Assembly (NCBI RefSeq): GCF_030160635.1 | Contig: NZ_BSOS01000006.1 | Span: forward strand, 62,001 to 126,000 | Origin: Acidocella aquatica | Lineage (GTDB): Bacteria > Pseudomonadota > Alphaproteobacteria > Acetobacterales > Acetobacteraceae | DNA: 64,000 nt | Direction: 5' to 3' | Shown here: piece after piece, positions 8,106-34,631 of the stretch | Layout: every line of letters starts with the position of its first letter | Position numbering within the stretch: position 1 is the stretch's first letter | Notes under the pieces: model-generated | What the model saw: the letters and a program-made list of their open reading frames with translations, nothing else | The model's database searches: none | What the model was told of the DNA's origin: nothing | Program-made: the position numbers and the translations under genes

Positions 8106-9248
8106 ATGCTGACGGATCTCGATGAAAGCCTGCATCATCAGGCCCCGTTGACGTTTGATCACGTGAATACCACGGATCATCGCTTTTATGACCGGCAGTT
8201 GATGGGCGGGTTCCGCCCGGATGGCGAGGCGGCTTTTCTTGCCGGAATCACCTATTTCAAGAATATGAACGTGGCCGAGGGCTTTATGATGGTCCAGGCG
8301 CGTTCGGCCAAGCAGTATAATGTGCGGTTCACCAAGCAATTGCGGCCGTTGACGGAGAGCCGGGCGCAGCTCGGGCCGCTTTCGCTGACCGTGGTGGAGC
8401 CGTTCAAGGAGTTGCGGTTTGTGCTGGAGGCGGGTGTGGACTACCCGCTGGCGATGGATATTACCTATCGCGCGGTGCTGCCGGCGCGCCTTGAGCACCC
8501 GCATAACGACCGTATGGATGGCCGGCTGCATACGGATTATCTGCGCTATAACCAGCTGGCGAAAATCAGTGGCTGGATTGAAGTTGAGGGTGAGCGTTTT
8601 GATGCCGCCGATTGGTTCGGCTGGCGCGACCATAGCTGGGGTGTGCGCCCTGGGGTTGGCGGGTTTGAACCCCAGACGGGGACCGCCGTGGGTGGGGGCG
8701 TGGCGTCGGCGTCGCGGACTGGCGGCAAGGGGCTTTTTCTCGTGCATGCGGGGTTTTTCAATGGCACGCAGGGCGGCAGTATCCAGTTGATTGAAGCGGG
8801 CGACGGCAAGCGGATTTATACCGAGGGCGCGGTGTGCGGGGCGGACGGCGAGGAGATCGCCGTGACCAGCATTACGCATGACGTGGTGTTCAAACCCGGC
8901 ACGAGGGTGTTTGATACCATGGGGCTGGATCTCGGCCTGGCGAATGGCGAGACGTGGACGCTGCGGGCAAAGTCTGTTGGGCGGCCCTGGGTGTATCGTG
9001 GCGGCGGGTTTGACAGCGGGTTTAACGATGGCAAGGGCCAGGGCGTGTATCGCAGCAAGGAGTTGATGATCGAGACGGAGGTTTATGACATCTCCGACCC
9101 TGAGTTGATAGGCTTCCCCGATGGCACGCGCGGCAAGACCAAGCACCGTGAGCAAATGGCGGTTTGCGAGATTAACGGCGTGACCGGCTCCGCCTATATG
9201 CCGATGTTTGTCATTGGCGATTTAGTTCAGCTTAAGGGCCAAAAATGA
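8106..9248 (+). CDS. Lipocalin-like (AttH/CrtC-type, DUF7064-like) protein
   Basis: A 380-residue soluble protein with no signal peptide, rich in predicted beta strands. The key visible motif is ADWFGWRDHSWGVRPG near residues 168-183; the RDHSWG-R element is typical of the two-domain calycin superfamily (AttH, CrtC hydratases and DUF7064/7065 proteins) that handle hydrophobic molecules. A good ribosome binding site (GGGAGAA) precedes the ATG. Its stop overlaps the next start by 4 nt (ATGA), so it is coupled to the phosphotransferase-like gene. A paralogue at 32059 is coupled to a kinase in exactly the same way. The biochemical role is unproven; substrate binding, hydration or isomerisation of a lipophilic intermediate is plausible. 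Confidence 0.7.
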   Translation: MLTDLDESLHHQAPLTFDHVNTTDHRFYDRQLMGGFRPDGEAAFLAGITYFKNMNVAEGFMMVQARSAKQYNVRFTKQLRPLTESRAQLGPLSLTVVEPFKELRFVLEAGVDYPLAMDITYRAVLPARLEHPHNDRMDGRLHTDYLRYNQLAKISGWIEVEGERFDAADWFGWRDHSWGVRPGVGGFEPQTGTAVGGGVASASRTGGKGLFLVHAGFFNGTQGGSIQLIEAGDGKRIYTEGAVCGADGEEIAVTSITHDVVFKPGTRVFDTMGLDLGLANGETWTLRAKSVGRPWVYRGGGFDSGFNDGKGQGVYRSKELMIETEVYDISDPELIGFPDGTRGKTKHREQMAVCEINGVTGSAYMPMFVIGDLVQLKGQK

Positions 9249-10297
9249 TCAATGAAGCATCGCTGCAAAGCTATTTTCAGAAGCACCTGGGTATTGATAC
9301 GCAGGTGGTTAAGGTGAAGCAGACGTTTCCAGGAATTTCGCGGCAGACCTATTTGGTTTGGACCAAGGAGGGGAATGCCGAGGGGAGCTATATTTTCCGG
9401 ACTGATTCCAAGGGCGGGCCGATTTGCCCGGTGCCGTTGGAATATGAGTGGAAGATTATGTCGCGGCTGTTCAAGACCGTGGTGCCGGTGGCCGAGCCGT
9501 TGTGGTTTGAGCAGGCGCCGGAGGTGACCGGGGGCCGGCCGGTGATGGTGCGGCGGATGGTTGATGGCTCCAATGAGATTCCGGGGCTGTACGATGAGGG
9601 TGCGGCAGCGGCGGCGCGGCGGCAGCGGGTTGCCTTTGACCATGCCGAAAAGCTGGCGGCGCTGCATACGCTGGATTTAGAGGCCAACGGGTTTACCGCG
9701 TTTGTGGAAATGCCGGAGTCTCCAGCACTGGCCTCGCGGCATGATTTTGAGCGTTGGACCGGCATATGGCGTGGCGCGCGCACTGATCCGATGCCGCTGG
9801 TGACCGAGGCGGCCTATTGGCTGGAGGAAAATCTGCCGACGAGCGCTGCGCGGATTTCGTTATGCAAAGGCAATAACGGCATGGGCGAGGAGATTTGGAA
9901 GGACGACAAGGTTGCGGCGCTGAGCGATTGGGAGTTGGCGTTCGCGGGTGACCCGGCGCAGGATTGGGCGATGTCTCAGGGCATGCTGACGCTCGGCGAT
10001 GCGAAGGCGACGATCGCGCATTATGAGGCGGCGGCGGGGTTCTCGATTGATCAGTCGAGCCTGGATTTTTACCGGGTGTGGGAGGTGTGGAAAGCGGTGC
10101 CGACGCTCAACAACGGGCTGCGCAGCTTTCTGGACGGCTCCGACAAGAGCGTGGCGCGGTTGAACCTGGGCTATGGGCGCGTGAAATTGTTCGAGCAGCT
10201 GTTGGGCATGATGATCGGCAAGCCGATTGACGAGGCGGCGGCGATTGTCGAGCGTTGGCGCAAGAGCCCGTACCGCCCTGAAAACGCCGCGGCTTAA
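9245..10297 (+). CDS. Phosphotransferase-fold protein lacking catalytic residues (predicted pseudokinase)
   Basis: A 350-residue protein of the aminoglycoside phosphotransferase/choline kinase superfamily: N-lobe (1-100), C-lobe with the usual DWELAFAGDPAQDWA segment at about 228-242. The catalytic loop, normally HGD-x4-N, reads K208-G209-N210 and E215 here (LCKGNNGMGEEIW), so the catalytic base Asp and the metal-binding Asn are replaced while the downstream Asp228 is kept. The frame is intact, so this is not simple decay. It starts inside the stop codon of the lipocalin-like gene and belongs to a five-gene operon that also encodes an intact kinase. It may bind a ligand or act as a scaffold or regulator rather than transfer phosphate. 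Confidence 0.8.
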   Translation: MINEASLQSYFQKHLGIDTQVVKVKQTFPGISRQTYLVWTKEGNAEGSYIFRTDSKGGPICPVPLEYEWKIMSRLFKTVVPVAEPLWFEQAPEVTGGRPVMVRRMVDGSNEIPGLYDEGAAAAARRQRVAFDHAEKLAALHTLDLEANGFTAFVEMPESPALASRHDFERWTGIWRGARTDPMPLVTEAAYWLEENLPTSAARISLCKGNNGMGEEIWKDDKVAALSDWELAFAGDPAQDWAMSQGMLTLGDAKATIAHYEAAAGFSIDQSSLDFYRVWEVWKAVPTLNNGLRSFLDGSDKSVARLNLGYGRVKLFEQLLGMMIGKPIDEAAAIVERWRKSPYRPENAAA

Positions 10298-10308
10298 GGA
10301 GAGAGACG

Positions 10309-10809
10309 ATGAAACCATCCGTTGAGCAGATGCTCGAAGCGATGCAGTTGGCGCTGCGGGAAAAAGTGTCGCCGGTGGTGAGCGACCAATGGGCGGCGAG
10401 TGCGCTGCGTAGTGTCGACGTGATTTTGAACCATCTGCAGGCGCGCACGCCTGTGGAAGGGCCGATGCTGTATGAGGATAACCGTGACCTGGCGGCAGTG
10501 CTGGAAGGGGCGGGCGGGTTGAGCCTGGCTGGGGAAATGGCCAGCAATGGTGATGTATTGGCCAAGGCGCTGGCGGGGTTTGCCGCGGATGTGGCGGAGT
10601 CGGCGCAGGGGTATCCGGCGGTTGCGGTGTTGTCGGCGCTGAATGTTCGCGGGCGGTATTTACTCGACGATTTGCTGCGGGTTTGCCACGCGCGCAGGGG
10701 CCAGCCAGGGGTGGAGCGGGTGCATACGGCATTGCGTGGATATTTGGACCGGCATATTGAGCGCGAGCGGCCGTTTTTCTTCCCGACATACGTCGGCCGG
10801 CCGGTATGA
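10309..10809 (+). CDS. Small helical protein resembling the N-terminal module of the adjacent kinase
   Basis: A 166-residue, mostly alpha-helical cytoplasmic protein with no recognised catalytic motif. A strong ribosome binding site (AAGGAGAG) precedes the ATG and the stop overlaps the next start (ATGA). By eye, its first 60 residues share spacing of hydrophobic and A-x-x-x-L-x-x-x-V-x-P positions with the N-terminal 50 residues of the kinases at 10806 and 33150 (for example LREKVSPVVSDQWA versus FREEVKPELTSPQT). It may be a free-standing copy of that module, perhaps contributing to a complex with the pseudokinase. Function unknown. Confidence 0.65.
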   Translation: MKPSVEQMLEAMQLALREKVSPVVSDQWAASALRSVDVILNHLQARTPVEGPMLYEDNRDLAAVLEGAGGLSLAGEMASNGDVLAKALAGFAADVAESAQGYPAVAVLSALNVRGRYLLDDLLRVCHARRGQPGVERVHTALRGYLDRHIERERPFFFPTYVGRPV

Positions 10810-12188
10810 GCGGGTTGGATGACCGCGCGGGCGCGCAGCTACGGGCCGTGCTTGCGGCGTTCCGCGAGGAGGTGAAGCCTGAACTCACCTCGCCGCAGAC
10901 CAAGTTTCGCGCAGAGCTGATTGATATGCTCCTGACCCGGCTTGCCGCCGAGGCGGATGGCGGGGATGCGGGGGAGTTGTTCTGGGATGATATGGGGCGA
11001 TTGCTGGGGCAGACGCCTGCTAACGATGAGCGGGCGCGCAACCAGGCGCTGTCCGATTTGTTGGGCCATGCGCAGGGCGGGGACGGCAAATTGGTGGCTT
11101 TGATTGCCGCGATCGCCGCTGGTGAAGCCAAGCGCCGGGTTGCATTGGAAGACCGGGTTGCGGAGAATTTGCGGGTTTTGAAAACCGGGCCGAGTTCGGC
11201 TGGCGAACTCTCGATTTCGCCGGAGGATGTGACCGGGTATCTGCGCGGGCGTTTTCCGGAAGACCCTGGTATTATCGCGACGCGGGTGACGGTGGTGCCA
11301 GGTGGGCGCTCGAAGGCGACCATTTTAATTGAGTTCACCACCGCCGATGGTCCGCGTGAGATTGTGGTGCGCAAGGATTTCGAGCTGGGGTCGGCGGGTA
11401 TTTCGGTTGTTGAAGAATATCCCGTGATTCGCGCTGCTTGGGAGGCGGGTTTGCCGGTGCCGCAGCCGTTGTGGCTGGAGGAGCGGCGGAGCGCGATTGG
11501 CGGCAAGTTCATCGCGTTCAGCAAGGTCCGTGGCAAATCCATGGGGACGTTGTTCGCCAGCGATGCCTCGCCGGCATTTTTGCGGGAGTTTGCCGCGACG
11601 CTGGCAAAACTGCATGCGGTGGACATTGATAAATCCGGCTTGAGCGAGCGGCTGCGCTGGGCGCGGGAGGCGCACCCGGTTCGCGCGCTCATTGATCATT
11701 TTTATGACCGTTACCGCCTGCTGCCGCCTGAGCCGTTGATGGATGCGGCGTTTGCGCATTTGCGGCTGCTGATGAAGGATATCGGCAATGAACGCGCGCT
11801 GGTGCATGGCGATGCGGGTTTGCATAATCTGATGGGCGAGGGCGACCATCTGACAGCGCTGCTGGACTGGGAGTTTTCGCATACAGGGGACCCGGCCGAG
11901 GATTTAACGTATTGCAAATATCTGGTGGAGAAGTTGATCCCCTGGGATGAGTTCATGGCGGTGTATATCGCGGCTGGCGGGCGGCCGGTCTCCCCGGCGC
12001 GGATGCAGTTCTTCACGCTGTGGCGGACGCTGCATCTTGCCATTCACACCGGAACGGCGAAGCTGGCGTTTGATAGCGGTGAAGATCAGGATTTGCGCAA
12101 GGCGGCGATCGGCTACAACACATTTCCCAAACAGTTGCGCGACCTGGCGTTTGATTTGGCCAGATATACCGGCGGGAGCAAGCTGTGA
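10806..12188 (+). CDS. Aminoglycoside phosphotransferase-like kinase with N-terminal helical domain
   Basis: A 460-residue protein. Residues 1-135 form a helical extension; the phosphotransferase fold follows. The nucleotide loop is VVPGGRSKATI near 163-173, the catalytic loop is intact (His334-Gly335-Asp336 and Asn341, ALVHGDAGLHNLM) and the metal-binding LLDWE has Asp354. It should transfer the gamma-phosphate of ATP to a hydroxyl of a small molecule. Antibiotic resistance is unlikely: it overlaps the helical satellite gene by 4 nt and the alpha/beta hydrolase by 4 nt in a catabolic operon. The presumed substrate is a hydroxylated pathway intermediate, by inference. A paralogue is at 33150. 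Confidence 0.85.
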   Translation: MSGLDDRAGAQLRAVLAAFREEVKPELTSPQTKFRAELIDMLLTRLAAEADGGDAGELFWDDMGRLLGQTPANDERARNQALSDLLGHAQGGDGKLVALIAAIAAGEAKRRVALEDRVAENLRVLKTGPSSAGELSISPEDVTGYLRGRFPEDPGIIATRVTVVPGGRSKATILIEFTTADGPREIVVRKDFELGSAGISVVEEYPVIRAAWEAGLPVPQPLWLEERRSAIGGKFIAFSKVRGKSMGTLFASDASPAFLREFAATLAKLHAVDIDKSGLSERLRWAREAHPVRALIDHFYDRYRLLPPEPLMDAAFAHLRLLMKDIGNERALVHGDAGLHNLMGEGDHLTALLDWEFSHTGDPAEDLTYCKYLVEKLIPWDEFMAVYIAAGGRPVSPARMQFFTLWRTLHLAIHTGTAKLAFDSGEDQDLRKAAIGYNTFPKQLRDLAFDLARYTGGSKL

Positions 12189-13066
12189 CCGGCCGGTCCA
12201 CCACCGGACCTTCATCGCATATCTATGTTTCGCAGCGGCTTCGGCTGCATTATGCCGATTGGGGAAATGCCCAGGCGCCGCCGTTGCTTCTGCTGCATGG
12301 CTCGCGGGACCATTGCCGTAACTGGGACTGGGTGGCGCAGGATTTGTGCCGGGATTACCACGTCATCGCGCCGGATTTGCGCGGGCATGGCGATAGTGCC
12401 TGGACCAATGACGGCCAGTATTCCATGGCGGCCTATGTGTATGATCTGGCGCAGTTGATCCATCAGTTGAAGCTGGCGCCGCTTGCCATCGTGGCGCATT
12501 CGCTTGGCGGGAATATTTCGCTGCGGTATGCGGGGTTGTATCCGCAAAATGTGAGCCGCCTGGTGGTGATCGAGGGCATGGGTTCGATGCCCAATGGGCC
12601 GCTGGAGGCACAGCCGGAGAAGGTGGTGCCACGGATGATTGATTGGCTGGATGAGCAGCGCAGGCTCTCGGCGCGGTTGCCGAGGCGGTATGCGACCATC
12701 GATGAGGCGTTTCAGCGCATGCACGCGGAGAACAAGCATCTCTCCGAGGCACAGGCGCGGCATTTGACGTATCATGGTGTGAGCCAGAACGAGGATGGCA
12801 CGTTCAGCTGGAAGTTTGATAATTATGTGCGGGCGTTTCCACCGAACGATCTGGCGCCGGCGGAACTGGCGTATTTATGGAGCCGGATTAGCTGCCCAAC
12901 GCTGTTGGTTTACGGAGCGGATAGTTGGGCGACCCCGCCGGACCAGGATGGGCGCATGGCGCATTTTAAAAATGCGCGGCTCGATGTTTTTGAGCATTCC
13001 GGGCATTGGGTGCAGCACGATCGTACGCCGGATTTTATCAAGACCGTGCGGGAATTTTTGGCCTGA
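12185..13066 (+). CDS. Alpha/beta hydrolase
   Basis: A 293-residue cytoplasmic hydrolase with the expected triad: nucleophile Ser106 in AHSLGG, an acid in YGADSWATPP after strand 7, and a histidine in EHSGHWVQHD near the C-terminus. The oxyanion region is LLLLHGSRDH. The fold suits ester, thioester or carbon-carbon bond hydrolysis; in meta-cleavage pathways such enzymes hydrolyse ring-fission products. It starts inside the stop codon of the kinase and is last in its operon, followed by a hairpin. The exact substrate cannot be told from sequence. Confidence 0.82.
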   Translation: MTGRSTTGPSSHIYVSQRLRLHYADWGNAQAPPLLLLHGSRDHCRNWDWVAQDLCRDYHVIAPDLRGHGDSAWTNDGQYSMAAYVYDLAQLIHQLKLAPLAIVAHSLGGNISLRYAGLYPQNVSRLVVIEGMGSMPNGPLEAQPEKVVPRMIDWLDEQRRLSARLPRRYATIDEAFQRMHAENKHLSEAQARHLTYHGVSQNEDGTFSWKFDNYVRAFPPNDLAPAELAYLWSRISCPTLLVYGADSWATPPDQDGRMAHFKNARLDVFEHSGHWVQHDRTPDFIKTVREFLA

Positions 13067-13075
13067 GCGGAGCGG

Positions 13076-13099
13076 GCGCGGCGATTTTTATCGCCACGC
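13076..13099. terminator. Hairpin between convergent genes
   Basis: GGCGAT (13080-13085) pairs with ATCGCC (13090-13095) around a TTTT loop; beyond one C-A mismatch, GCG pairs with CGC. It lies in the short gap between the hydrolase and the oppositely oriented ferredoxin. T-rich sequence after the stem is weak, so termination efficiency is uncertain. Confidence 0.4.
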
Positions 13100-13112
13100 T
13101 TCTCCGTTGGCG

Positions 13113-13445: not shown

Positions 13446-13523
13446 GGCTGATCCTTTTTCTTAAAGCTGGGGGTGAAATACAATAGGGCGTAGCCTGGTG
13501 GAATGGAAGATGCCGGCGCGCGG

Positions 13524-14270: not shown

Positions 14271-14283
14271 GGGAGGCTCCTGA

Positions 14284-15054: not shown

Positions 15055-15080
15055 GATTGGATTTCCCCTTGATTATTAAC

Positions 15081-15133
15081 TAGCGCACGATCTGAAAAAA
15101 CTCATTCCGCACGCTTGCTTAAAATGTGCGCTA
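15081..15133. promoter_or_regulatory. Inverted repeat in divergent promoter, candidate operator pair
   Basis: TAGCGCAC (15081-15088) and GTGCGCTA (15126-15133) are perfect complements, 37 nt apart, inside the 152-bp gap between the divergent SDR and crotonase genes. A related ATGCGCTA occurs at 22768-22775 ahead of the DUF1302 operon. The arrangement suggests two half-sites for one regulator controlling both directions. The binder is not known. Confidence 0.4.
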
Positions 15134-22121: not shown

Positions 22122-22840
22122 GCTAGAATCTCCTCCTGAACCGCTTTGCGGCAATATATGGCAACCAAACAATGAGGTTGTGTACTAATTTTCTGGCCAC
22201 CCTAACATCTGTTTCCTGTGGGGGCAAGAAATCGCCGTGGAAGCGGATCGAAGACGGATAAAATGAGGAAAACCAAGGATATCAAAGCAATTTCACGGAA
22301 AAATTCCAACAAATTCAACGGGGATGGAGAAGACCCCCGGTGTGACGCCCGGTTTTAGTGGAACGAAAAGAGAATTGCCGGCAATGCTGAGAAAGCTGGT
22401 AAGCAAGGGCAGAAAATGGTCAAATAAAGAGATTGTAAGCCACCGTATGGTTGACAACTTTCTATCTAGTGTAATAAACACTTGCGTACTATCGTCGTTC
22501 AGGCAAAAGTTCACAGACCGTAGTTTGTAGTTACCGTCGTCATAAGTGGTGTTGTTATGAGGGGGAGGCGTGGACAAAATTATCGTTCTTAAATGCTGGG
22601 TGGATTTATCCGTCGCGGTGTAGGTTGAAGGGGCGGGGTATTGATCCATTTAGGCTGGCTTCCAGTCGTTTTTCGCGGAATGTTCTGAGATTGCGGGTTG
22701 CTTGGTGGGCGTGAGCAATGCCTCATTTGAGTGTTGAAGGTCTGACAGGTACTAAAAGCTTATTGATATGCGCTAGAGTAATAAAAAATCGCCAGCTTTA
22801 AACTGGTGGCGTGCAAGATCAACTGGGAAGGATAAATTCA
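22122..22840. other. Long AT-richer intergenic region
   Basis: 719 bp between the divergent ferredoxin reductase and DUF1302 genes, less GC-rich than its surroundings. It holds promoters for both directions, a possible relic of a LuxR-type gene at 22324-22530, a TGCGCTA-type motif at 22768-22775 and a small hairpin (CGCCAG, loop, CTGGTG) near 22790-22808 in the leader of the barrel gene. No intact protein frame is convincing. Confidence 0.5.
22324..22530 (+). pseudogene. Possible remnant of a LuxR-type helix-turn-helix
   Basis: A 68-codon frame whose middle reads TKREL...LVSKG..WSNKEI, then VSHRMVDNFLSSVIN. These segments resemble the LuxR C-terminal helix-turn-helix (TxRE-x-EVL-x-LVA-x-G-x-SNKEIA ... 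VSxRTVDNHLSxV), with about four extra residues before SNKEI and about five missing after it. The rest of a regulator is absent. It is most simply read as a decayed fragment. Chance resemblance is possible. Confidence 0.3.
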
Positions 22841-24526
22841 ATGAAAACAAAGGATGTAACGATTTTAAAGCAGCGGTTGCTGTCGAGTATTCCATCTCGA
22901 TATGCGCACCTCTCCGCCTTGATGCTCGCGGGCACGGCGGCGGGTGTCGTGACACTTTTGGCGCCGCATGCGGCGCATGCGTACAGCTTCTACAACGGCC
23001 AGTATGATGGTCAGCAACTCGAGATCAACCTCGATACGACGGTTGGTTATTCAAATATTTTTCGTGTCAATAATCCGTCCAAGGTGTTGTTGGCCAATGT
23101 CAACGGCGATGAAGGCGACCGCCAGTTTCCGCATGGCATGGTTTCGAATGAATTCGAAGTTAACCCGATTTTTGACGTCAAATACGGCAATTACGGCTTG
23201 CATGTCAGCGGTGAAGCTTATCTGAACACCGTTTATCTGCAAAAGGGCCAAGATCACTCAGCGGCCACCTTAAACCCGATTTCGATTACCGATCCATCGA
23301 GTTTCACGAGTGCGACGCGCAATCAGAATGGTGAAAATGCCAAGCTTCTGGATGCCTTTGTTTATGGCTCGGAGTATTTTGGGGCGAATAACCAGCAGGA
23401 AATCACTGTTAAAATTGGCCGTCAGACTCAGCTTTGGGGGCAGAGCCTGTTGATCGCCGGTGATGGTATTTCCGCGGCCATGGCGCCGATTGATATTCAG
23501 TTCGCGCAGAGCAACCCGAATGCGCTGGCCTCGCAGGTGTTCCTGCCGACCGCGCAGGTGGTCGTAACCTATCAGCCAAACACCGTATATACCCTGCAGG
23601 CTTATTATCAGTCTGAATGGGCGCCGGATAATTTCCAGGGTGTAGGCTCTTATTTCAGCAGCGCAGACATTCTCGACAAGGGTGGGCAGCGGATTCTTGT
23701 TGGAGGTCCTTATGGGCTTTACCGTATCAAGGATAACCGCCCGCCGATCGGTAACGGCCAGTTCGGTGTCTCCCTACAGGCGACGCTTGGTAATTTCGAT
23801 CTTGGCGTGTATGCGCTGCGCTATGATTCCAAAACGCCTGAGATCTATGTTGGTGCACCAGATCCGTCGAAGGGGCCGTCAATTCCTCAGGGCGGCGTAA
23901 ATGCGGGCAGTTACTGGCTGGTTTACCCACGTGACTTGCAGTTGTACGGTGCTTCGATCTCCACCACCATTGGGCCAGCTAACGTCGCGGGAGAAATTTC
24001 GTATCGTCCGAATGTGAATTTGGACAGCGGTTTGGGTGGTTCGGCCTATCCCGGTAATGCGAATGGCTCCCCGGCCTGGGCCGTCGGCCGCGTGTTGAAC
24101 GAACAGATTTCAACTTTGTATATTTCGCCACCGTTACCGCTTGATCCAGGTGGTTTGTCGTTCCTGGGCGAATTTGTATCAAACACCGTGCTTGGCGTGT
24201 CAAAAAACAAGGCTGCGTTGGCTCCAGGCCGCGATGCCACGGCTGGCCAGATTGCCTTTCAGCTTACCCCGACCTACTTCTTTGCTGCGGTTCCAAATGT
24301 TCAGTGGAACTTTCCGATCGGCTTCGGCATGGGCGTGTTTAACCGCTCGCAGTTCGACCAAACCGAAAACAATGGCGTTGGCCACGTAAATGTCAGTATT
24401 CAAGCCATTTACAAGCAAACTTGGACGGCCGAGGTGACCTATTACGACTATCTCGGGAAGGCTAACGCGCTCAATCCAACGGCCGATCGCGGGTATGTCG
24501 GATTCAACCTTACGCATACATTCTAA
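22841..24526 (+). CDS. DUF1302 family outer-membrane beta-barrel protein
   Basis: 561 residues. The N-terminus has a positively charged start, a hydrophobic stretch (SALMLAGTAAGVVTLLA) and a cleavage site AHA|YSF near residue 47, so it is exported. The mature protein is rich in amphipathic strands and Gly/Asn/Gln and ends in F (LTHTF), the usual barrel signal for the BAM machinery. DUF1302 proteins accompany DUF1329 proteins and RND pumps in clusters for steroid, terpenoid and other hydrophobic substrates and may be uptake channels. The start at 22841 has a GGGAAGGA site; an earlier in-frame GTG lacks one. DUF1329 follows after 20 nt. Confidence 0.88.
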   Translation: MKTKDVTILKQRLLSSIPSRYAHLSALMLAGTAAGVVTLLAPHAAHAYSFYNGQYDGQQLEINLDTTVGYSNIFRVNNPSKVLLANVNGDEGDRQFPHGMVSNEFEVNPIFDVKYGNYGLHVSGEAYLNTVYLQKGQDHSAATLNPISITDPSSFTSATRNQNGENAKLLDAFVYGSEYFGANNQQEITVKIGRQTQLWGQSLLIAGDGISAAMAPIDIQFAQSNPNALASQVFLPTAQVVVTYQPNTVYTLQAYYQSEWAPDNFQGVGSYFSSADILDKGGQRILVGGPYGLYRIKDNRPPIGNGQFGVSLQATLGNFDLGVYALRYDSKTPEIYVGAPDPSKGPSIPQGGVNAGSYWLVYPRDLQLYGASISTTIGPANVAGEISYRPNVNLDSGLGGSAYPGNANGSPAWAVGRVLNEQISTLYISPPLPLDPGGLSFLGEFVSNTVLGVSKNKAALAPGRDATAGQIAFQLTPTYFFAAVPNVQWNFPIGFGMGVFNRSQFDQTENNGVGHVNVSIQAIYKQTWTAEVTYYDYLGKANALNPTADRGYVGFNLTHTF

Positions 24527-24546
24527 GAATCAGGGAAGAAACAACC

Positions 24547-25962
24547 ATGAAAAGAAGAAGTTTTGGTTTGATGGGTGCAGTCAGCGCGGCGGCGATGAGT
24601 GCGGGGGTTGGTCTTCCGCAGAGGGCACGCGCGGCGCTGACGACGGCGGATGCCGACCGGCTCAAGAGTGAACTAACCCCGATCGGCGCCGAGCGCGCGG
24701 GCAATGCGGATGGTTCGATCCCGGCCTGGACCGGCGAAAATCTGCCGCTTGAGGGCAGCGGCCCATGGGGCATTCTGCCTGACTACTTCGCCAGCGACGC
24801 GAAGATTGTCAGCATCAATGCCTCCAATATGGAGCAATACAAAGACAAGCTGACACCCGGCACGCAGGCGATGATGCAGAAGTATCCGGACTTCCGGATC
24901 GATGTGTATCCGACCCATCGTACCGCGATTGCCACGCAGGAAGTGTATGACAACGCGTATAAGAACGTGACGGGTGCGGTGCCGGCCGCGGGCGGTTCGC
25001 GCTTTGGCGTTTCGGGTGTTTACGGCGCCATTCCGTTCCCGATCCCCGACCCGAACGATCCGCTTGAGGCTGGCGCACAGATTATTCAAAACCATTCCTT
25101 CCGGTGGTTCGGCCCGTATCAGACGCGCAATCTCTGTATTTATACAATGATCGATGGCCAGTTGGTGCTGGCCACGGGTGACCGGGTGACGCAGTCCTGC
25201 CCTTACTACTTCCCCGGCGGTGATGCTGCCTCCTTCGACAGCGGCCCTCACAGGGGCCAACTGCGCAACTTCCTGGGGCCGGTGTTTGCCCCGCCGCAGT
25301 CCAAGGGGCAGATCTACATGGAGCTGAACACGACGAATCAGCTGGAGAATCCGGTCAAGATCTGGGAATATCTGGTGGGTCAAGGGCGTGTGCGCCGCGC
25401 GCCGGAACTACAGTATGACACGCCGGAAACGCAGGCCAACGACCTTATCAATTATGACGAAAGCTACGGTTGGTACGGTTCGCAGGACAGGTACGACTGG
25501 AAGTCGCTCGGCAAGAAGGAGATGTACATCCCCTACAACAACAACAAGCTGTGGAATGCAACCCAGTTTGAGGCGCATGGGAACCATTTCATTAATCCGG
25601 ATCTGGTGCGGTGGGAACTGCATCGTGTATGGGTGGTTGATGCCACGTTGCACCCAGGTGAGCGTAACGTGCTGCCGCACCGTGTGTTCTATGTTGACGA
25701 GGATACATGGACCATCGCGGCGACTGACTCCTACGATGCGCAAGGCAATCTGCTTCGCGTTGTGCATATCTTCAATGAAAACCGGCCAGATATTCCTGCT
25801 GTTTCCATGGGAACGCCGGCGTTCTACAATTTCCAGACGGGCAATTATGTGACTGTGCAGGCCCCCTGGAATTCACCGCCGTATAACCAGCCCTACCTGC
25901 TGACGCCAATTCCCGATAGCACGTTCAATCCGCAACAAATGGCGGCGGCGGGTCAGTATTAA
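24547..25962 (+). CDS. DUF1329 family periplasmic/outer-membrane protein
   Basis: 471 residues with an N-terminal signal (KRRSFGLMG is Tat-like, cleavage near ARA|ALT). DUF1329 proteins have a LolB-like fold and are thought to carry lipophilic molecules in the envelope. Visible family features are ADRLKSELTPIGAERAGN at the start of the mature chain, IPAWTGE and a C-terminal YVDEDTWTI region. It is 20 nt behind the DUF1302 barrel gene and ends before a strong terminator, so the two form the upstream unit of the envelope module. Confidence 0.88.
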   Translation: MKRRSFGLMGAVSAAAMSAGVGLPQRARAALTTADADRLKSELTPIGAERAGNADGSIPAWTGENLPLEGSGPWGILPDYFASDAKIVSINASNMEQYKDKLTPGTQAMMQKYPDFRIDVYPTHRTAIATQEVYDNAYKNVTGAVPAAGGSRFGVSGVYGAIPFPIPDPNDPLEAGAQIIQNHSFRWFGPYQTRNLCIYTMIDGQLVLATGDRVTQSCPYYFPGGDAASFDSGPHRGQLRNFLGPVFAPPQSKGQIYMELNTTNQLENPVKIWEYLVGQGRVRRAPELQYDTPETQANDLINYDESYGWYGSQDRYDWKSLGKKEMYIPYNNNKLWNATQFEAHGNHFINPDLVRWELHRVWVVDATLHPGERNVLPHRVFYVDEDTWTIAATDSYDAQGNLLRVVHIFNENRPDIPAVSMGTPAFYNFQTGNYVTVQAPWNSPPYNQPYLLTPIPDSTFNPQQMAAAGQY

Positions 25963-25996
25963 GGAGGCGCCGCTCCCAAGCGGCAGCCTGACCAGC

Positions 25997-26045
25997 GGTG
26001 TGCCTCAAACAGGGGTTTTGTTTGGGGCGCACCTTTTGTCTTTTT
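25997..26045 (+). terminator. Rho-independent terminator after DUF1329
   Basis: A 15-bp stem (25997-26011 with 26019-26033, two G-T wobbles, no mismatch) closes a 7-nt loop and is followed by TTTTGTCTTTTT. It lies 35 nt after the DUF1329 stop and 42 nt before the next gene, so transcription of the YCF48/RND genes either reads through or restarts. Confidence 0.85.
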
Positions 26046-26086
26046 AGCCTAGTGCGTTCGTGATCGGTGAAGTGAGTACGATAATA

Positions 26087-27193
26087 ATGCCAATACGCCG
26101 CCATTTTACTGTTATTCTGGGCCTGTTGTGCATGCTGATCTCGACGCCGCTGCGGGCTGACGGTCAGGTGCCAACGGGTATCCGGCCGCTCGATACACCA
26201 GCGTTGGCAGCCAAGGTGCCGGATCAGGTAACGCTGATTGCCATTACGAAAGCCGGTAACAGGCTTGTGGCGGTTGGTGAACATGGTGTGATTATCTACT
26301 CTGATGACAATGGCAAAACCTGGACGCAGGCGCGCGTGCCGGTTAGCGTTCTGCTAACGGCGGTTGCTTTCGCAACGCCGGCGCAAGGCTGGGCGGTGGG
26401 GCATTATGGGGTGATTCTCCATACGTCTGACGCTGGCGCCACTTGGCAACTGCAGCTCAATGGCATCCAGGCAAACCAGCTTACACTTGACGCTGCCAAC
26501 CAGGCCGTTGCGCAAGACCCGAATTCGGAAGTAGCCCAGCGTGCATTGCACCGGGCAAATATATTCATGGCGGCCGGCGCGGATAAGCCATTTCTCACCG
26601 TTTTGGCGCTGAGCGCGAATGACGCGATTGCCTTCGGGGGCTACCGTATGGCGATGAGAACAACAGATGGCGGAAAAACCTGGACTGACTGGAGCCTGCA
26701 TATAGGGGATCCGATCAGCCATAATCTCTATGATGTGGAGCAAATCGGGCCGTATATTGTTATCGCTGGCGAGGCTGGAAATGTCTTCATTTCAACTGAC
26801 GGCGGCAATGATTTTCCAGCTGTAACGGCACCCACTGATGCGACCATGTTTGGCGCTGTTGCAACAGGCGATAACAACGGGGTGCTTGTGTTTGGTGTCG
26901 CGGGGCAGGCGTATCGCAGCGAAGATGGCGGTAAGACCTGGCAAACGGTACAGACGTTTGGATCAGAGGCCAATTTGCTTGCCGCGCGCACGCTCGCATC
27001 GGGCGTCATTGTCGTCGTCAGTGAAGCGGGTGTGATCTATGTTTCCCGCGATCATGCTCACAGCTTCACCCGCTTGCCGGAACCTCAGAAAATGGGCCTG
27101 TTTGATCTTGTGCAGGCTGCGAATGGTGATGTCGTGTTTGTCGGAAATCTTGGTGTGCAGCGTGTTCCTGCCCAAGATTTCGGCGTAAATTAG
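26087..27193 (+). CDS. YCF48/BNR-repeat (sialidase-like propeller) exported protein
   Basis: 368 residues with a signal peptide (FTVILGLLCMLISTPLRA) and at least five Asp-box-like repeats: DDNGKTWTQ, SDAGATWQL, TDGGKTWTD, TDGGNDF and EDGGKTWQT. The S-x-D-x-G-x-T-W repeats predict a beta-propeller, as in YCF48/HCF136-type proteins. In bacterial clusters this family sits beside DUF1302, DUF1329 and RND genes, suggesting an accessory to the envelope system. The start at 26087 (ATG giving MPIRRHF) provides the compact signal peptide; a GTG 27 nt upstream is possible. Confidence 0.8.
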   Translation: MPIRRHFTVILGLLCMLISTPLRADGQVPTGIRPLDTPALAAKVPDQVTLIAITKAGNRLVAVGEHGVIIYSDDNGKTWTQARVPVSVLLTAVAFATPAQGWAVGHYGVILHTSDAGATWQLQLNGIQANQLTLDAANQAVAQDPNSEVAQRALHRANIFMAAGADKPFLTVLALSANDAIAFGGYRMAMRTTDGGKTWTDWSLHIGDPISHNLYDVEQIGPYIVIAGEAGNVFISTDGGNDFPAVTAPTDATMFGAVATGDNNGVLVFGVAGQAYRSEDGGKTWQTVQTFGSEANLLAARTLASGVIVVVSEAGVIYVSRDHAHSFTRLPEPQKMGLFDLVQAANGDVVFVGNLGVQRVPAQDFGVN

Positions 27194-27207
27194 AACGGGG
27201 GAATTTC

Positions 27208-29604
27208 GTGACCATTCATACTGATCCATCGCCCGTCATTGCCGATATTTCCCAATTTGATCGAAAGTCCGGTTCATTTCTGGAAGGACTGTTGTTTAAT
27301 CATCGGCCGATTATTCTACTGGCCTGCCTCCTGGCAACTTTGTTCTTTGGCTTCTCGGCGACGCAGATAAAACTGAATGCAAGCTTCGAGAAGATGATTC
27401 CGACGCACCAAGCGTTTATCGTCAATTTTCTTAAGCACTATGACGAGCTGCAAAGTCAGGGGAATGCTGTCCGCATCGTGGTGAGCGCCAATCAGGGCAC
27501 GATCATTGACGCGCACTATCTCTCGGTCCTGCAGAAGATTAGTGACCAGGTCTACCTTCTGCCGGGCGTTGACAGAGGGTATATGACCTCGCTCTGGACG
27601 CCGCTGACACGCTGGCTGGCGGTCACCCCCGACGGGCTTGAGGGGGGGCCTGTAATCAGCCAGTATTATGATGGCAGTCCCGCGCAGTTGGAGATCGTCC
27701 GGCAGAATATTGCGAAAACGGGAAAAATCGGCGAACTCGTCAGTCCTGATTTCAAGTCGAGCATGATTTATGTGCCGTTGATGGAGAACGATAATCTCAC
27801 GGGAAAACCGTTGAACTACGGCGAGCTTGCACGGGATTTGAATGGCATACGCAAGGAATATGCCTCCCAGGGAGTGACGCTGCATATTGTTGGTTTCGCC
27901 ATGGTGGTTGGCGATATGATCAACGGAATCAACGAAATTCTAGCCTTCTTCGCGGTCTCAATTCTGATCGCGACATGCGCGTTGTTTTGGTATACGCGCT
28001 GTGTGAGGAGCACGTTGCTGGTGGTAACGGCCTCTCTTGTGGCCGTCACTTGGCAAATGGGGTTACTGCCGATACTCGGCTTTGATCTCAACCCCTATTC
28101 GGTGCTGGTGCCATTCCTGGTGTTTGCCATTGGTATGAGCCATGGCGCGCAGAAAATGAACGGCGTTATGCAGGATATCGGGCGTGGCACGCATCCGCTG
28201 GTCGCCGCACGCTACACGTTCCGGCGGCTGTTCCTGGCCGGGTTCGCGGCACTTACCTGTGATGCGGCCAGCTTTGGCGTGCTGATGACCATAAAAATCG
28301 AGGCGATTCGCGAGTTGGCGCTGATTGCCAGCATGGGTGTGGGTATCCTGATCTTCACGAACTTGATAATGCTGCCAATGTTGCTGAGCTATACAGGGGT
28401 TAGCCGCAAGGCGGCGGTGCGCAGCATGCGCACCGAAATGGCTGAGGAAGGCGGGCGGGTCTCACATCCGTTATGGGATTTTCTCGATCTGTTTACCCAG
28501 CGCCGCTATGCCACCATGGCAATTTTTCTGGCGGTGATCCTTGGTTGCGTTGGCTGGTATGTTGGCCGTGGTGTGCAGGTTGGCGATTTGAACCAGGGCG
28601 CACCGGAGTTGCGGCAAGCCTCGCAGTACAACAAGGATAATGCATATATCCTGAGTCATTATTCGACCGGCAGTGATGTACTGGTCGTAATGATTGATAC
28701 GACGCCGGGGCAATGCACCGACTATAAGACAATTTCAACAATTGATGGTCTGGAATGGCAATTAGACCAGATGCATGAAGTGAAGTCCACGGAGTCTCTC
28801 GCATCCTTTGCGGCCATGGCCACGATGCTGTTGACCGAGGATGCGCCTAAATGGGACGCGCTTGATCTTACGATGACCGATTATATCGTCTACGCGCCGA
28901 GCCGTCTGGTGAATCCAGATTGTAGCTTTTTGCCGCTCTACGTCTCACTCGTCGACCATAAAGCGGCGACACTGGACCATGTGGTCGCGACCATACAGAA
29001 ATTCATCGCAAACCCGGCTAACCAGGGGGCCGGTTTTAAAATCTCCCTGGCAGGCGGCAACGCCGGCATTGAAGCCGCGACCAATATCGTCATCAAGCAG
29101 GCCAATGATCAGATGCTTTATCTGGTTTATGCGGCCGTGATTCTCTTCTGCTTTGTAACCTTCCGTTCCTGGCGGGCGGTGCTCTGCGCGGTATTGCCGC
29201 TTGTCCTCACCTCAATTCTCAGCCAGGCGCTGATGGTCTGGTTACACATAGGCATCAAAGTGGCGACGCTTCCGGTGATTGCGCTTGGTGTCGGCATAGG
29301 TGTCGACTATGCTCTCTATGTACTGAGCATTTGCCTTAAACAACTGCGGGCAGGGGCGAGCCTTTCGGACGCTTATCATCGTACGCTTCTGTTTACGGGA
29401 AAGGTCGTGCTGCTGACCGGGTTTACCTTGGCGGCCGGTGTGGTGACCTGGGTATTCGCCCCGATTAAATTCCAGGCTGACATGGGATTGCTGCTATCGT
29501 TCATGTTTGTATGGAACATGCTCGGCGCGATGATTCTCGTTCCCTCACTGGCGTATTTCCTGCTCCCACAATCATTGTTCAAGCCCGCCGTGGAATCCCA
29601 GTGA
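27208..29604 (+). CDS. RND/MMPL-family transporter
   Basis: A 798-residue inner-membrane protein in two halves, each with one N-terminal membrane helix, a large periplasmic loop and a block of about five helices (first block about 235-400, second about 640-790). The membrane segment of the second half contains GVGIGVDYALYV, a typical RND/SSD motif with the membrane Asp, and ALGVGIG ahead of it. No periplasmic adaptor gene is adjacent. It follows the YCF48 protein by 14 nt. It probably moves a lipophilic molecule with proton-motive force; the direction is not determined. Confidence 0.9.
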   Translation: MTIHTDPSPVIADISQFDRKSGSFLEGLLFNHRPIILLACLLATLFFGFSATQIKLNASFEKMIPTHQAFIVNFLKHYDELQSQGNAVRIVVSANQGTIIDAHYLSVLQKISDQVYLLPGVDRGYMTSLWTPLTRWLAVTPDGLEGGPVISQYYDGSPAQLEIVRQNIAKTGKIGELVSPDFKSSMIYVPLMENDNLTGKPLNYGELARDLNGIRKEYASQGVTLHIVGFAMVVGDMINGINEILAFFAVSILIATCALFWYTRCVRSTLLVVTASLVAVTWQMGLLPILGFDLNPYSVLVPFLVFAIGMSHGAQKMNGVMQDIGRGTHPLVAARYTFRRLFLAGFAALTCDAASFGVLMTIKIEAIRELALIASMGVGILIFTNLIMLPMLLSYTGVSRKAAVRSMRTEMAEEGGRVSHPLWDFLDLFTQRRYATMAIFLAVILGCVGWYVGRGVQVGDLNQGAPELRQASQYNKDNAYILSHYSTGSDVLVVMIDTTPGQCTDYKTISTIDGLEWQLDQMHEVKSTESLASFAAMATMLLTEDAPKWDALDLTMTDYIVYAPSRLVNPDCSFLPLYVSLVDHKAATLDHVVATIQKFIANPANQGAGFKISLAGGNAGIEAATNIVIKQANDQMLYLVYAAVILFCFVTFRSWRAVLCAVLPLVLTSILSQALMVWLHIGIKVATLPVIALGVGIGVDYALYVLSICLKQLRAGASLSDAYHRTLLFTGKVVLLTGFTLAAGVVTWVFAPIKFQADMGLLLSFMFVWNMLGAMILVPSLAYFLLPQSLFKPAVESQ

Positions 29605-29779
29605 GGCATGGAAACAAGGGGCGGACCAAAATAGGTTAGTTGTTTTCTGTCCTGGCGATGCTTTCTGCGGATGGCATTGCGGGTAACGAGTATTGTGCGG
29701 GCCGTCTGACTTTGAAGCAGCGGCATTTGGAACGGTTGTCAGCAGCCGTTAAGGATCGCTTTGAAGAAAGGTCTATGGC

Positions 29780-31990: not shown

Positions 31991-32058
31991 AACTGGTTTG
32001 CTGATTTAACGGGAGGCGGGCGCCTGCCGTATGATGGAAACGACAAGGACATAATTTC

Positions 32059-33153
32059 ATGCTGGATGCTGCTTTGCTGAACCCGTTTGACGTTGATCCA
32101 CACGACGAGCTTCCGCATCCGGCGGAGGATAAGCCGAATTGGACCGAGTACTACTATTTCTTTGGCTTCGACAGGCAAGCGGACCATGCCATCAGTTTGC
32201 ATATTGGCCGCGAGCCGACGGATACAGACATCTGGCGCGCGGTGATTGGCGTTTATCTTCCGGGCGGAAAACTGCTGGTGGGACGCTATTTGGGGCGGGA
32301 CGGCACCGCGGATGGTCCTGGCGCGGGACCAATGCGCGTGCGCTGCCTGGAACCAATGCGGCGGTGGGCACTTAGCTTCGATGGATTACTGGAACAATCC
32401 GATCGTGTTGCCGCGGCTAACCACCCGCATCCAAGCGCAATTGCCGAGGTGGCGAAATTTGATCTTGTGTTCGAAGGCGCCGCGCCGATGTGGGATCTTG
32501 GAAAGAGCGATCTGTCCAAAGGTTTTGTGTTTGTCGCGGATGACACAAGCGAGGAGTCAAAGTCGCATCACTGGGAACAAATCTGCAAGGTAGGCGGCAG
32601 CCTCACGGTTGCCGGCAAGACGCTGGCTTTTGAGGGCGCGGGCAACAGGGATCACTCCTTTGGTCCGCGCGATTATACCCCGATGGTGAGCAGCATGTGG
32701 GTGAATGCGTATTTCCCCAGTGGCAAGGCGCTGATGCTGATGGGAACGAGGGTTGGACCGTTCTTCATCAAGGGTGGTTATATCTTCCGCAACGATGGCA
32801 ACCCGCTGGAGACAGTTCGTTTTATTGAGGCGCCAGCGGGTGAGGGCGAGGCGGCGCCCCTTGCCAGCGTGGCGGCTGATCCGTTGGCGGACCCAGCGCA
32901 GAGGCATTTTCGGGTTGTGGTGGCGACGGCCGCGGGATACGAAGTGATTACCGGAGAGCTGGTACATGCCCTCTCCACTACGAATTTGTCGCCCAATCAT
33001 GAACTGCTAGGCACGGATATGGCTTTTTCAGGGAAGGGATTCCAGTTCTGCGAATGCCCCACGCGCTATTCATGGAATGGCGAGGAGGGCATGGGGCATT
33101 TCGAACGGATCACGCAATTGCGTTCTCTTCATGCAACAGGTGTGCTGCCATGA
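32059..33153 (+). CDS. Lipocalin-like (AttH/CrtC-type, DUF7064-like) protein
   Basis: A 364-residue soluble protein with no signal peptide and a beta-rich pattern. The diagnostic motif GAGNRDHSFGPRDY near residues 194-207 matches the RDHSWG-R motif of the paralogue at 8106. It is coupled by an ATGA overlap to a phosphotransferase, as is the paralogue. This is a second copy of the same two-gene unit, so the two proteins probably act in sequence on one type of hydrophobic substrate. Overall sequence similarity between the paralogues is low, so they likely have distinct substrates or roles. Catalysis is not demonstrated. Confidence 0.7.
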   Translation: MLDAALLNPFDVDPHDELPHPAEDKPNWTEYYYFFGFDRQADHAISLHIGREPTDTDIWRAVIGVYLPGGKLLVGRYLGRDGTADGPGAGPMRVRCLEPMRRWALSFDGLLEQSDRVAAANHPHPSAIAEVAKFDLVFEGAAPMWDLGKSDLSKGFVFVADDTSEESKSHHWEQICKVGGSLTVAGKTLAFEGAGNRDHSFGPRDYTPMVSSMWVNAYFPSGKALMLMGTRVGPFFIKGGYIFRNDGNPLETVRFIEAPAGEGEAAPLASVAADPLADPAQRHFRVVVATAAGYEVITGELVHALSTTNLSPNHELLGTDMAFSGKGFQFCECPTRYSWNGEEGMGHFERITQLRSLHATGVLP

Positions 33154-34631
33154 TCCGCGATAAAGATTTGCATCGCTTTATTACCTCCATCTCCACGGCG
33201 CTCGCTGGGCCGGTCATGGGCGATCTGCAATCGGATGGGGTGCGCAGGTTGAACGGCATACTGCTGTTGTTGCTGGACCGGATTGCCTCGGATTTTATAG
33301 ACGGGAATGCCATTGCGGCGGAAACCCTGCGGCAATGGGAAGAGCTGGAAGGCGAAGTCGCGGCGGTTGGTTTGGCGGCGGCAACGCGAGATTTGGAGCA
33401 GCCTGGGCAAATTCGCGAGACGCTGGATCGACGGATGACATCCGTGCAGAAACAGCTTTGCGCGCCGGAGGCTTTTGACGATTTTGTAGAGCGTCTGCGT
33501 GCGAAGGATCCGCAAGCGCGCGCATGGATGCAAAAAGCTTCCGGGGCATTGCTGCGGGTGAACCAGGCCTTTGAGGATAGTTTTTCCGCACATGGCAACC
33601 GTAAGGCGGAGGTGGCGGTTGACAAGGCAAGCGCATTGCGCACCGGCCTCGCAGCTTATCTGAAGCAGCGCTATCCTCAGTTGCCGGATGATCCTCTGGA
33701 AGAGTTTGTTGTTGCATCGGGGGGATTTTCAAAAATCACGGCGCTTTTCACGCTGCCCGAAAATGGCGTTTTGCCGCGGCGGCTGACGTTGCGGTTGGAT
33801 ATTCCGAACGCGATCACCCAGGCGGTCTTGAGTGATGAATACCCGATTTTGGAGCGAGTGTATCAGCTTGGGCTGCCGGTACCCAAGCCTCTGTTTTTCG
33901 AGCCGGATGCAAGCCATCTGGGCGGAGCTTTTGTCGTCACCACGCAGGTTGAGGATGCCAAGGTGGCGGGCTCGCCGTTTTATGAGGACCGCCGGAAGGG
34001 GGGCACGAATATCGGGCCGCAATTCGGGAGGGAAGTTGCGCGCCTGCTCGCGGATCTGCATCGCGGCACGCTGGAGGCCGCACCCGATCCGGCGATCGCC
34101 AAGGCACGTGATGACATTATCGCAACACTGAGCGCCGAGTGGCGGGCGCTGGAGAAACCGGCGTTCTCGCTGGGGCTCGATCTTGGCCTTGCCTGGCTGG
34201 CTGCGAATCCTCTACCGCCGGAGCGGCCGGTTACGTTGATCCACGGTGATTTCGCGCCGCATAATGTGCTGACGCGCGATGGCCACGTTGTGGCCCTGCT
34301 CGATTGGGAACTGGCAAAACGCGGTGACCCGGCGGAAGATCTGGCGCAGGCCAAGATGCTGATGACCGGCGGAATTATCGGCTGGGATGATTTTGTGGCA
34401 ACCTATGTCGAGGCCGGTGGCCCGGCAATTGCCTGCGACCCGCATGCTGTGGCCTATTATGCGATTATCGTTTTCCTCCAGCATGGCGTGAACGAGACGC
34501 GGCTTCGTAACAATTATCTGAACGGGACGCGCGGCGATATCGAGGCAATGATCTGCGCCAGCCATTTTCAGGATAGGCTCAATCTCTACCAGGCAAAGTC
34601 GTTGGCTGAAGCCTTGGCGCTGGAAACATAA
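33150..34631 (+). CDS. Aminoglycoside phosphotransferase-like kinase with N-terminal helical domain
   Basis: 493 residues. About 1-170 is helical, resembling the N-terminal module of the kinase at 10806; the rest is the phosphotransferase fold, with His365-Gly366-Asp367 and Asn372 (LIHGDFAPHNVL) and Asp385 in LLDWE all present. It should be an active ATP-dependent small-molecule kinase. The start at 33150 overlaps the lipocalin-like gene stop by 4 nt; the frame is open further upstream but overlaps coding sequence. The presumed role is phosphorylation of a hydroxylated intermediate, by inference from the repeated pairing. Confidence 0.85.
   Translation: MIRDKDLHRFITSISTALAGPVMGDLQSDGVRRLNGILLLLLDRIASDFIDGNAIAAETLRQWEELEGEVAAVGLAAATRDLEQPGQIRETLDRRMTSVQKQLCAPEAFDDFVERLRAKDPQARAWMQKASGALLRVNQAFEDSFSAHGNRKAEVAVDKASALRTGLAAYLKQRYPQLPDDPLEEFVVASGGFSKITALFTLPENGVLPRRLTLRLDIPNAITQAVLSDEYPILERVYQLGLPVPKPLFFEPDASHLGGAFVVTTQVEDAKVAGSPFYEDRRKGGTNIGPQFGREVARLLADLHRGTLEAAPDPAIAKARDDIIATLSAEWRALEKPAFSLGLDLGLAWLAANPLPPERPVTLIHGDFAPHNVLTRDGHVVALLDWELAKRGDPAEDLAQAKMLMTGGIIGWDDFVATYVEAGGPAIACDPHAVAYYAIIVFLQHGVNETRLRNNYLNGTRGDIEAMICASHFQDRLNLYQAKSLAEALALET

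Follow-up and report, generated by a model that had tools for sequence, protein, structure and literature searches.

What does a lipocalin-like protein do when its gene overlaps that of a kinase in a catabolic gene region? This question is raised by a stretch of 64,000 nucleotides from Acidocella aquatica (NCBI RefSeq assembly GCF_030160635.1, contig NZ_BSOS01000006.1, positions 62,001 to 126,000 of the forward strand), referred to here as the window, in which two genes for lipocalin-like (calycin) proteins, P1 and P2, each run into a gene for a protein of the aminoglycoside phosphotransferase (APH) fold, K1 and K2, respectively. Both couplings had been described in the initial annotation of this DNA, and the overlap is borne out in each case: the genes share the four nucleotides ATGA at 9245 and at 33150, the latter being taken as the ATG start of K2, while the 33054 of the open reading frame (ORF) list is an upstream in-frame ATG. 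The first pair had been described incompletely, as the run continues with a small protein (S), a second kinase (K1b) and a hydrolase. It is argued here, from sequence and predicted structure, that each pair probably consists of a kinase and a phospholyase, which together would act as an ATP-dependent two-step dehydratase of a hydrophobic hydroxylated intermediate.

To our knowledge, the dehydration of a tertiary alcohol through a phosphoester is rare and is known in detail from one anaerobic sterol degrader. In Sterolibacterium denitrificans, a kinase and a subsequent phosphate elimination are reported to bring about an ATP-dependent dehydration, which was shown biochemically (PMC8449060, PMC7411048, PMC11061730).

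Identity of the Lipocalin-like Proteins

P1 passes the cut-off of the NCBIfam family Rv3169_fam (NF053593) with 262.7 bits against 150, and a sequence search of the PDB at E up to 1 matched it to nothing but the three entries of 25-phosphosteroid lyase (25-PSL), the structures of which were released in 2026; entry 9fzn is matched over residues 2-338 at an E value of 2.7e-24. P2 remains below the same cut-off (45.3 bits) and matches Pfam DUF7065 (35.5 bits, cut-off 27), while its match to a profile of the P1 family, at 98.2%, covers P1 residues 22-185, the N-terminal domain. The five best PDB matches of the AlphaFold model of P2 are all 25-PSL (E 9.3e-15 to 4.0e-14, TM about 0.6), followed by AttH, the decalin-type Diels-Alderase CghA, and kievitone hydratase. 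The two-lipocalin fold is supported by sequence for P1 and by predicted fold for P2.

The motif RDHS(W/F)G of the window proteins aligns with RDRSWG of 25-PSL. In PDB entry 9g4c this stretch reads RNRSWG, an exchange of Asp for Asn that is the sole difference visible in the aligned part, and the title of the entry names phosphate and desmost-1,4-diene-3-one as bound, the latter being the alkene of the published pathway. From the sequence and title of the entry, we infer that its depositors mutated a catalytic Asp, the residue corresponding to Asp175 in P1 and Asp198 in P2. All 15 distant P2 homologues that a whole-protein search without the motif turned up, some of them near-copies, retain the Arg-Asp pair. 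These relationships argue that the lipocalin-like protein is most likely an enzyme, namely a phosphate-eliminating lyase, and not a carrier. The initial suggestion that each pair works as a unit, binding a hydrophobic hydroxylated intermediate and phosphorylating it, is thereby retained in part: phosphorylation of such an intermediate is plausible, but the calycin protein would be a lyase instead of a binder, and because of this the unit would be an ATP-dependent dehydratase.

Coupling of Lyase-like and Kinase Genes

The window genome (4.03 Mb) holds 12 lyase-like loci and 24 APH matches, so that the occurrence of the pair "twice in one island", correct as to the two pairs, was an understatement; an APH gene lies within 2 kb at 8 of the 12 loci. 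A further P1-family gene is located about 4 kb before the window (L019, C6:57069-58076), with no APH gene nearby. The foreign sample comprises the best 80 of 557 confirmed loci, with flanks of up to 6 kb. These loci were found with the motif Wx(G/A)xRD(H/R)SWG, and conservation of the motif within them proves nothing, since it was the search key; the sample independent of the motif is that of the 15 distant P2 homologues. Many of the 80 loci are near-copies, so that P-values do not refer to independent cases, and some negative gene gaps reflect over-long ORF starts. A binomial estimate for the adjacency applied the kinase density of the window genome to every genome and took 7 of 11 own loci, the tally prior to inclusion of the twelfth.

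Among the 80 loci, an APH kinase lies within 2 kb of the lyase-like gene in 41 and within 300 nt in 24, and the distribution of distances is strongly uneven, with 43 kinases at less than 2 kb and 8 at 2-6 kb. At the foreign P2-type loci, a kinase is found in the 1.5 kb flanks of 7 out of 15. Adjacency of the two families is above chance, and they are not rarely adjacent elsewhere, the outcome that would have spoken against the initial idea of a functional pair, because 41 of the 80 foreign loci and 8 of the 12 own loci have a near APH gene.

Kinases and the Altered Catalytic Loop

K1, K1b and K2 all exceed the Pfam APH cut-off, which places them in the APH fold. K1b (VHGDAGLHN) and K2 (IHGDFAPHN) have canonical loops with the catalytic Asp and the metal-binding Asn, and both carry about 150 extra N-terminal residues. 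In K1, CKGNNGMGEE replaces HGDxxxGN, with the catalytic Asp and metal-binding Asn of (H/W)GDxxxxN missing and the metal Asp of the DWE motif retained. The top profile match of the kinases is PDB 3ats, presumably Rv3168, which has a WGD-type loop, as does PDB 9fsg, an entry labelled "aminoglycoside phosphotransferase-like protein" that we take, as a guess only, to be the 25-hydroxysteroid kinase (25-HSK) of S. denitrificans.

A loop of the form KG(N/T/Q)xGxGE, referred to here as the KG loop, occurs in 11 of the 68 kinases compared: in K1 and at one second locus of the window genome, and elsewhere in Sphingomonas, Sphingobium, an Acetobacteraceae metagenome-assembled genome (MAG), three Chloroflexi-type MAGs, Paraburkholderia, Pseudonocardia and a truncated Streptomyces copy. 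Judged by ORF positions, nine of the 11 immediately follow a lyase gene that has the same orientation, and the remaining two (L027 and L040) are 2.9-3.1 kb from the anchor lyase; the L040 copy lacks the N-lobe, adjoins a transposase-like ORF (identified by eye) and looks broken. A search at E 1e-15 matched K1 in 8 of 398 genomes of the phylum, with KG loops from the window genome only, few candidates having been scored per genome. The possibility that KG kinases are decaying genes is disfavoured by the comparison of K1 with its Sphingomonas relative (73% identity), in which differences amount to 19.7, 16.6 and 50.0% at codon positions 1, 2 and 3, indicating purifying selection.

Of the 11 KG loci, 7 have a second phosphotransferase, either another APH kinase or, in two Chloroflexi-type MAGs, a phosphohistidine swivel protein, as opposed to 3 out of 32 among the other kinase loci (Fisher P 9e-4). 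This excess is suggestive only, because the KG loci form fewer independent groups (about 4 of 8). For cassette 1 (lyase, K1, S and K1b), an assignment of K1 as a partner protein and K1b as the phosphate donor enzyme is narrowly favoured over a non-canonical activity of K1 itself.

The Small Helical Protein S

No Pfam match above any cut-off was obtained for S, and the other members scanned were likewise without a Pfam family. Its model is a confident helical bundle with a predicted local distance difference test (pLDDT) score of 86.6, for which the fold search returned no PDB match at E up to 0.001. A four-sequence profile of S found relatives beside the kinases of other loci, and in a search with a profile derived from the window S and 24 small ORFs that had been chosen for lying at kinase ends, homologues were present at 25 of the 41 kinase-lyase loci, a count that holds partly by construction because of that choice of ORFs. 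The gene orders are lyase-kinase-S or kinase-S-lyase, and 14 of the 24 picked S genes overlap the kinase by 4 nt, a count biased upward by a start-picking script that favours such overlaps. The S proteins of KG loci are homologous to those of other loci (98.7%, E 4e-16 in profile comparison), and in a Variovorax MAG (L063:3621-5531) an APH kinase and S are fused in one ORF, the kinase occupying residues 119-438 and S residues 473-632. S was found at none of the 10 loci where the kinase within 2 kb is of the WGD type, which sets cassette 1 apart from the Rv3168 type of system, if 3ats is Rv3168 as we assume.

Two candidate relationships of S were rejected or found to lack support. The extra N-terminal residues of K1b and K2 do not appear to be a fused S, as profile comparison gave a probability of 1.7%; single-profile S matches were weak and mixed (K1b 3e-5, K2 0.027, in a database of 10 sequences). 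Nor is S a detectable homologue of DUF6285, the family to which LvaB, the small partner of the kinase LvaA, presumably belongs: there was no DUF6285 match at E up to 10 and no detectable homology to the DUF6285 protein of locus L116, the only one of ten small proteins scanned that carries this domain. Loci L116 and L121 each combine a P2-like gene with an APH kinase, followed at L116 by the DUF6285 gene, and a second family of small partners may therefore exist.

Replacement of the Kinase by Phosphohistidine-Type Phosphotransferases

In 8 of the 39 foreign loci without an APH kinase within 2 kb, genes for phosphohistidine (swivel-domain) phosphotransferases adjoin the lyase-like gene. All eight are actinobacterial by title, and they were assigned by likeness to the swivel-domain proteins of a cluster on plasmid pRB98 of Rhodococcus oxybenzonivorans (544057-557139, L124), in which the lyase-like gene lies amid split genes for phosphoenolpyruvate (PEP) utilisers and a CoA ligase. 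The proteins of this cluster carry PEP-utilisers domains (PF00391 by Pfam), one has a pyruvate phosphate dikinase (PPDK) ATP-binding domain, and a search at E up to 0.01 gave no Pfam match for two of the large subunits. In the eight loci, the sequence of which ends near the place expected for a PPDK-type ORF, none was detected; at a ninth locus (L094), the sole gene of this kind is a PPDK-type ORF at a distance of 1.4 kb. In two Chloroflexi-type MAGs, a swivel-domain protein follows lyase, KG kinase and S (L028:8717-10222, by Pfam; L029:8533-9891, by likeness), and no ATP-grasp gene was noted beside it.

On a lyase tree made by a quick method and having several long branches, the lyases of the eight loci group in a single clade (SH-aLRT 99) that lies among APH-partnered clades, and the replacement therefore counts as one event. 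The presence of two unrelated phosphotransferases in the same place supports the view that the lyase would need a phosphorylated substrate. Partner type in general is clustered on this tree, with 19 changes against a shuffled mean of 45.1 and none of 200 shuffles as low. Three labels on the tree call for qualification: the nearest kinase of L027, given as KG, is of the HND type; L040, given as HGD, additionally contains a KG relic; and L094, given as having no partner, has its PPDK-type ORF 1.4 kb off. On the same tree, a lyase of the window genome (own18) pairs with that of an Acetobacteraceae MAG (L085).

Proposed Mechanism and Alternative Readings

In the mechanism proposed here, the APH-fold kinase would phosphorylate a hydroxyl group of a hydrophobic intermediate of catabolism, probably an alcohol that is tertiary or for some other reason hard to eliminate, and the lipocalin-fold partner would eliminate the phosphate by means of the Asp of RDHS(W/F)G, giving an alkene that would be processed by the surrounding CoA-dependent degradation enzymes. 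Cassette 1 would be a larger unit of lyase, altered kinase K1, S and canonical kinase K1b, with K1b as the probable phosphate donor enzyme and K1 and S as a substrate-handling or regulatory partner of the lyase. More tentatively, with somewhat less than even confidence, the lipocalin-fold phospholyase may be seen as the fixed core of widespread modular ATP-driven dehydratases with interchangeable donors, which would be several APH kinase branches or a phosphohistidine dikinase unrelated to these. For one old branch, represented by cassette 1, sphingomonads, Chloroflexi, Paraburkholderia and actinobacteria, the direct partner of the lyase would then be a KG(N/T/Q)xGxGE protein of the APH fold together with an undescribed helical subunit, the KG protein being either a pseudokinase that passes substrate between a true kinase and the lyase or a kinase in which the metal and acid-base groups are arranged in a new way.

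Several observations weigh against the kinase-phospholyase interpretation. No APH gene lies within 2 kb at 4 of the 12 lyase-like loci of the window genome. Of the 80 foreign loci, 30 lack both an APH kinase within 2 kb and a detected PEP-type phosphotransferase, with an APH kinase 2-4 kb away in five of them; among the gene clusters shared by the 30 loci, no further common kinase type was found, and short-chain dehydrogenases, enoyl-CoA hydratases, CoA ligases and CoA-transferases (labels by eye) recur. The P2 model, with a mean pLDDT of 69.4, superimposes on 25-PSL with a root-mean-square deviation of about 7 A, and P1 shares only 25-28% identity with four paralogues in the same genome. Since the fold family includes hydratases and Diels-Alderases and the identity of P1 to these paralogues is low, the reaction could have drifted. 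Replacement of the catalytic Asp by Ala in ACAD10/11 is reported to have left little to no substrate consumption (PMC12440821), and K1 is therefore unlikely to be a standard kinase. In S. denitrificans itself, no lyase candidate is located near the 25-HSK gene (PMC8449060).

Among the alternatives, the one that survives best, though unlikely, is that the kinase acts on a 4-hydroxyacyl-CoA in the manner of LvaAB or ACAD10/11, elimination being performed by the neighbouring acyl-CoA dehydrogenase and the lipocalin-like gene having a role of its own. The window kinases are homologous to ACAD11, an acyl-CoA dehydrogenase gene is nearby, and the small partner genes recall LvaB (PMC6692424), with DUF6285 carried at the distant P2 locus L116. 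A reverse search of 12 K1-like kinases nevertheless separates the groups: HGDxRxDN loops occur in five, none of which has a detected lyase-like gene in flanks of about 1.5 kb, whereas both KG and both HGDYRLGN kinases do have one. In the other three (HGDYRTGN, HGDFRVGN and HGDIGFHN) no lyase-like gene was detected, HGDIGFHN being the C5 kinase of the window genome, the divergent lyase-like neighbour of which (L023) was missed by those profiles. From these few cases, the lyase tends to accompany a different kinase branch.

It is slightly less probable still that the lipocalin-like protein binds or carries the hydrophobic alcohol and offers it to the kinase, with no elimination. Lipocalin folds often bind hydrophobic ligands, and adjacency alone would fit, but among solved structures its closest relatives belong to a phosphosteroid lyase, the entries of which include bound product and the Asp-to-Asn change in the shared motif, and the invariance of the Arg-Asp pair in the distant homologues also speaks against this possibility. 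The least probable alternative, a hydratase or dehydratase of the AttH or kievitone hydratase type with the kinase serving another step, draws on the presence of those folds among the next structural matches of P2, where their E values are some four to five orders of magnitude worse than those of 25-PSL, and such chemistry would not lead to coupling with a kinase.

Gene Arrangement and Genomic Setting

The features of the two gene groups are listed in Table 1. In cassette 1, S and K1b overlap by ATGA, and K1b and the hydrolase by GTGA.

Table 1. Genes of the two lyase-kinase groups and adjoining features, in window coordinates
Gene	Position	Strand	Description
acyl-CoA dehydrogenase	5800..7014	-	Pfam Acyl-CoA_dh_1/N/M; adjoins cassette 1
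probable MarR-type regulator	7201..7728	-	divergent from P1; MarR label by eye
P1	8106..9248	+	380 aa, motif GWRDHSWGV; Rv3169-family, 25-phosphosteroid-lyase-like, two-lipocalin type
K1	9245..10297	+	350 aa, APH-fold; Pfam APH 44.3 bits (cut-off 23.2)
S	10309..10809	+	small all-helical protein, no Pfam family
K1b	10806..12188	+	second APH kinase; Pfam APH 100.2 bits
alpha/beta hydrolase	12185..13066	+	Pfam Abhydrolase_1 109 bits; last gene of the coupled run
P2	32059..33153	+	364 aa, motif GNRDHSFGP; divergent 25-PSL-like lyase, DUF7065
K2	33150..34631	+	493 aa, APH kinase; Pfam APH 94.4 bits (cut-off 23.2)

The nearest relatives of cassette 1 are found in Sphingomonas formosensis (L025) and Sphingobium sp. 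Leaf26 (L026), where the order lyase-K1-S-K1b is kept. Both loci also hold an acyl-CoA dehydrogenase, an enoyl-CoA hydratase and a P450 (identified by Pfam in L025 and by ORF likeness in L026), as well as MarR-like ORFs resembling that of the window (likeness by eye), and L026 additionally has a Rieske protein. The window itself encodes an acyl-CoA dehydrogenase, two CoA-transferases, a CoA ligase, a Rieske protein and a ferredoxin-reductase-like protein, and a consecutive row of DUF1302, DUF1329, BNR-repeat and MMPL genes (22811-29604) possibly serves the uptake or export of a hydrophobic compound. Such a gene content is in keeping with a hydrophobic compound that undergoes hydroxylation, then dehydration to an alkene and finally breakdown as CoA esters. 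A protein of 1164 residues with POR and DUF6537 domains (2218-5712) is odd beside a pathway of the CoA-ester type.

The catabolic part of the window (1-37300) has a G+C content of 58.1%, compared with 63.3% for 37300-64000, and a search of 199 other genomes from the order at E 1e-30 returned no close relative of P2; because of these two features, the catabolic part is probably an acquired island. Among 385 genomes of the class, 15 distant foreign matches of P2 were obtained by a search that scores the first few candidates per genome. P1-like genes were found in 19 plasmid records and P2-like genes in 18, of which three regions were opened. One of the three, on a plasmid of Sphingobium sp. TomMM15 (AP027315.1, 748885-749886, L122), has its P2-like gene near an acyl-CoA dehydrogenase and an enoyl-CoA isomerase, with no kinase annotated within 9 kb.

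Comparison with Known Systems

With 25-HSK and 25-PSL of S. denitrificans, the window pairs share the kinase superfamily, the lyase fold and its motif, and the same two-step dehydration is proposed for them; they differ in that the genes overlap, that cassette 1 adds S and a second kinase, and that the loop of K1 is altered. Rv3168-Rv3169 of Mycobacterium tuberculosis, the family of which includes P1 by its score, is described as one operon, and the accessible text assigns no reaction to the pair (PMC5340868). In levulinic acid catabolism, LvaA works with a 12 kDa partner, LvaB (PMC6692424). LvaA-LvaB and ACAD10/ACAD11 are alike in that an APH-type kinase phosphorylates a hydroxyl and thereby enables phosphate elimination, but their substrates are acyl-CoAs and elimination is performed by an acyl-CoA dehydrogenase; LvaB is a functional parallel to S rather than an evident homologue. 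HpeHI, CreHI and PpsAB are swivel-domain phosphotransferases that open catabolic pathways, in which the phosphorylated phenol is carboxylated and dephosphorylated, and a lipocalin-fold lyase is unmentioned in the accessible part of the source (PMC12167813). These enzymes and rifampin phosphotransferase share the phosphohistidine swivel domain, PF00391, with the proteins beside the lyase on pRB98. The statement in the initial annotation that phosphorylation is unusual in aromatic or terpenoid breakdown is softened by 25-HSK (PMC8449060), LvaAB (PMC6692424), the mammalian ACAD10/11 (PMC12440821) and kinases of phenolic compounds such as HpeHI and PpsAB (PMC12167813).

The combination of a kinase with dehydration by phosphate elimination is known, and the additions made here are S, the KG-loop kinase subfamily and the phosphohistidine replacement. 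No literature on these three was found in limited searches, which were partly aimed and unable to name S or the KG loop directly, and this absence is weak evidence of novelty; the literature search likewise found no publication on DUF7064. The distribution may already be treated in the publication behind the 2026 structures of 25-PSL.

If the proposed reading is true, a common and swappable module would take part in the bacterial breakdown of hydrophobic compounds, and the finding would provide a function for Rv3169 and the DUF7064/DUF7065 families, together with a testable reaction for the Rv3168-Rv3169 operon. It would also expose a branch of the APH fold with a rule-breaking catalytic loop that is conserved across phyla.

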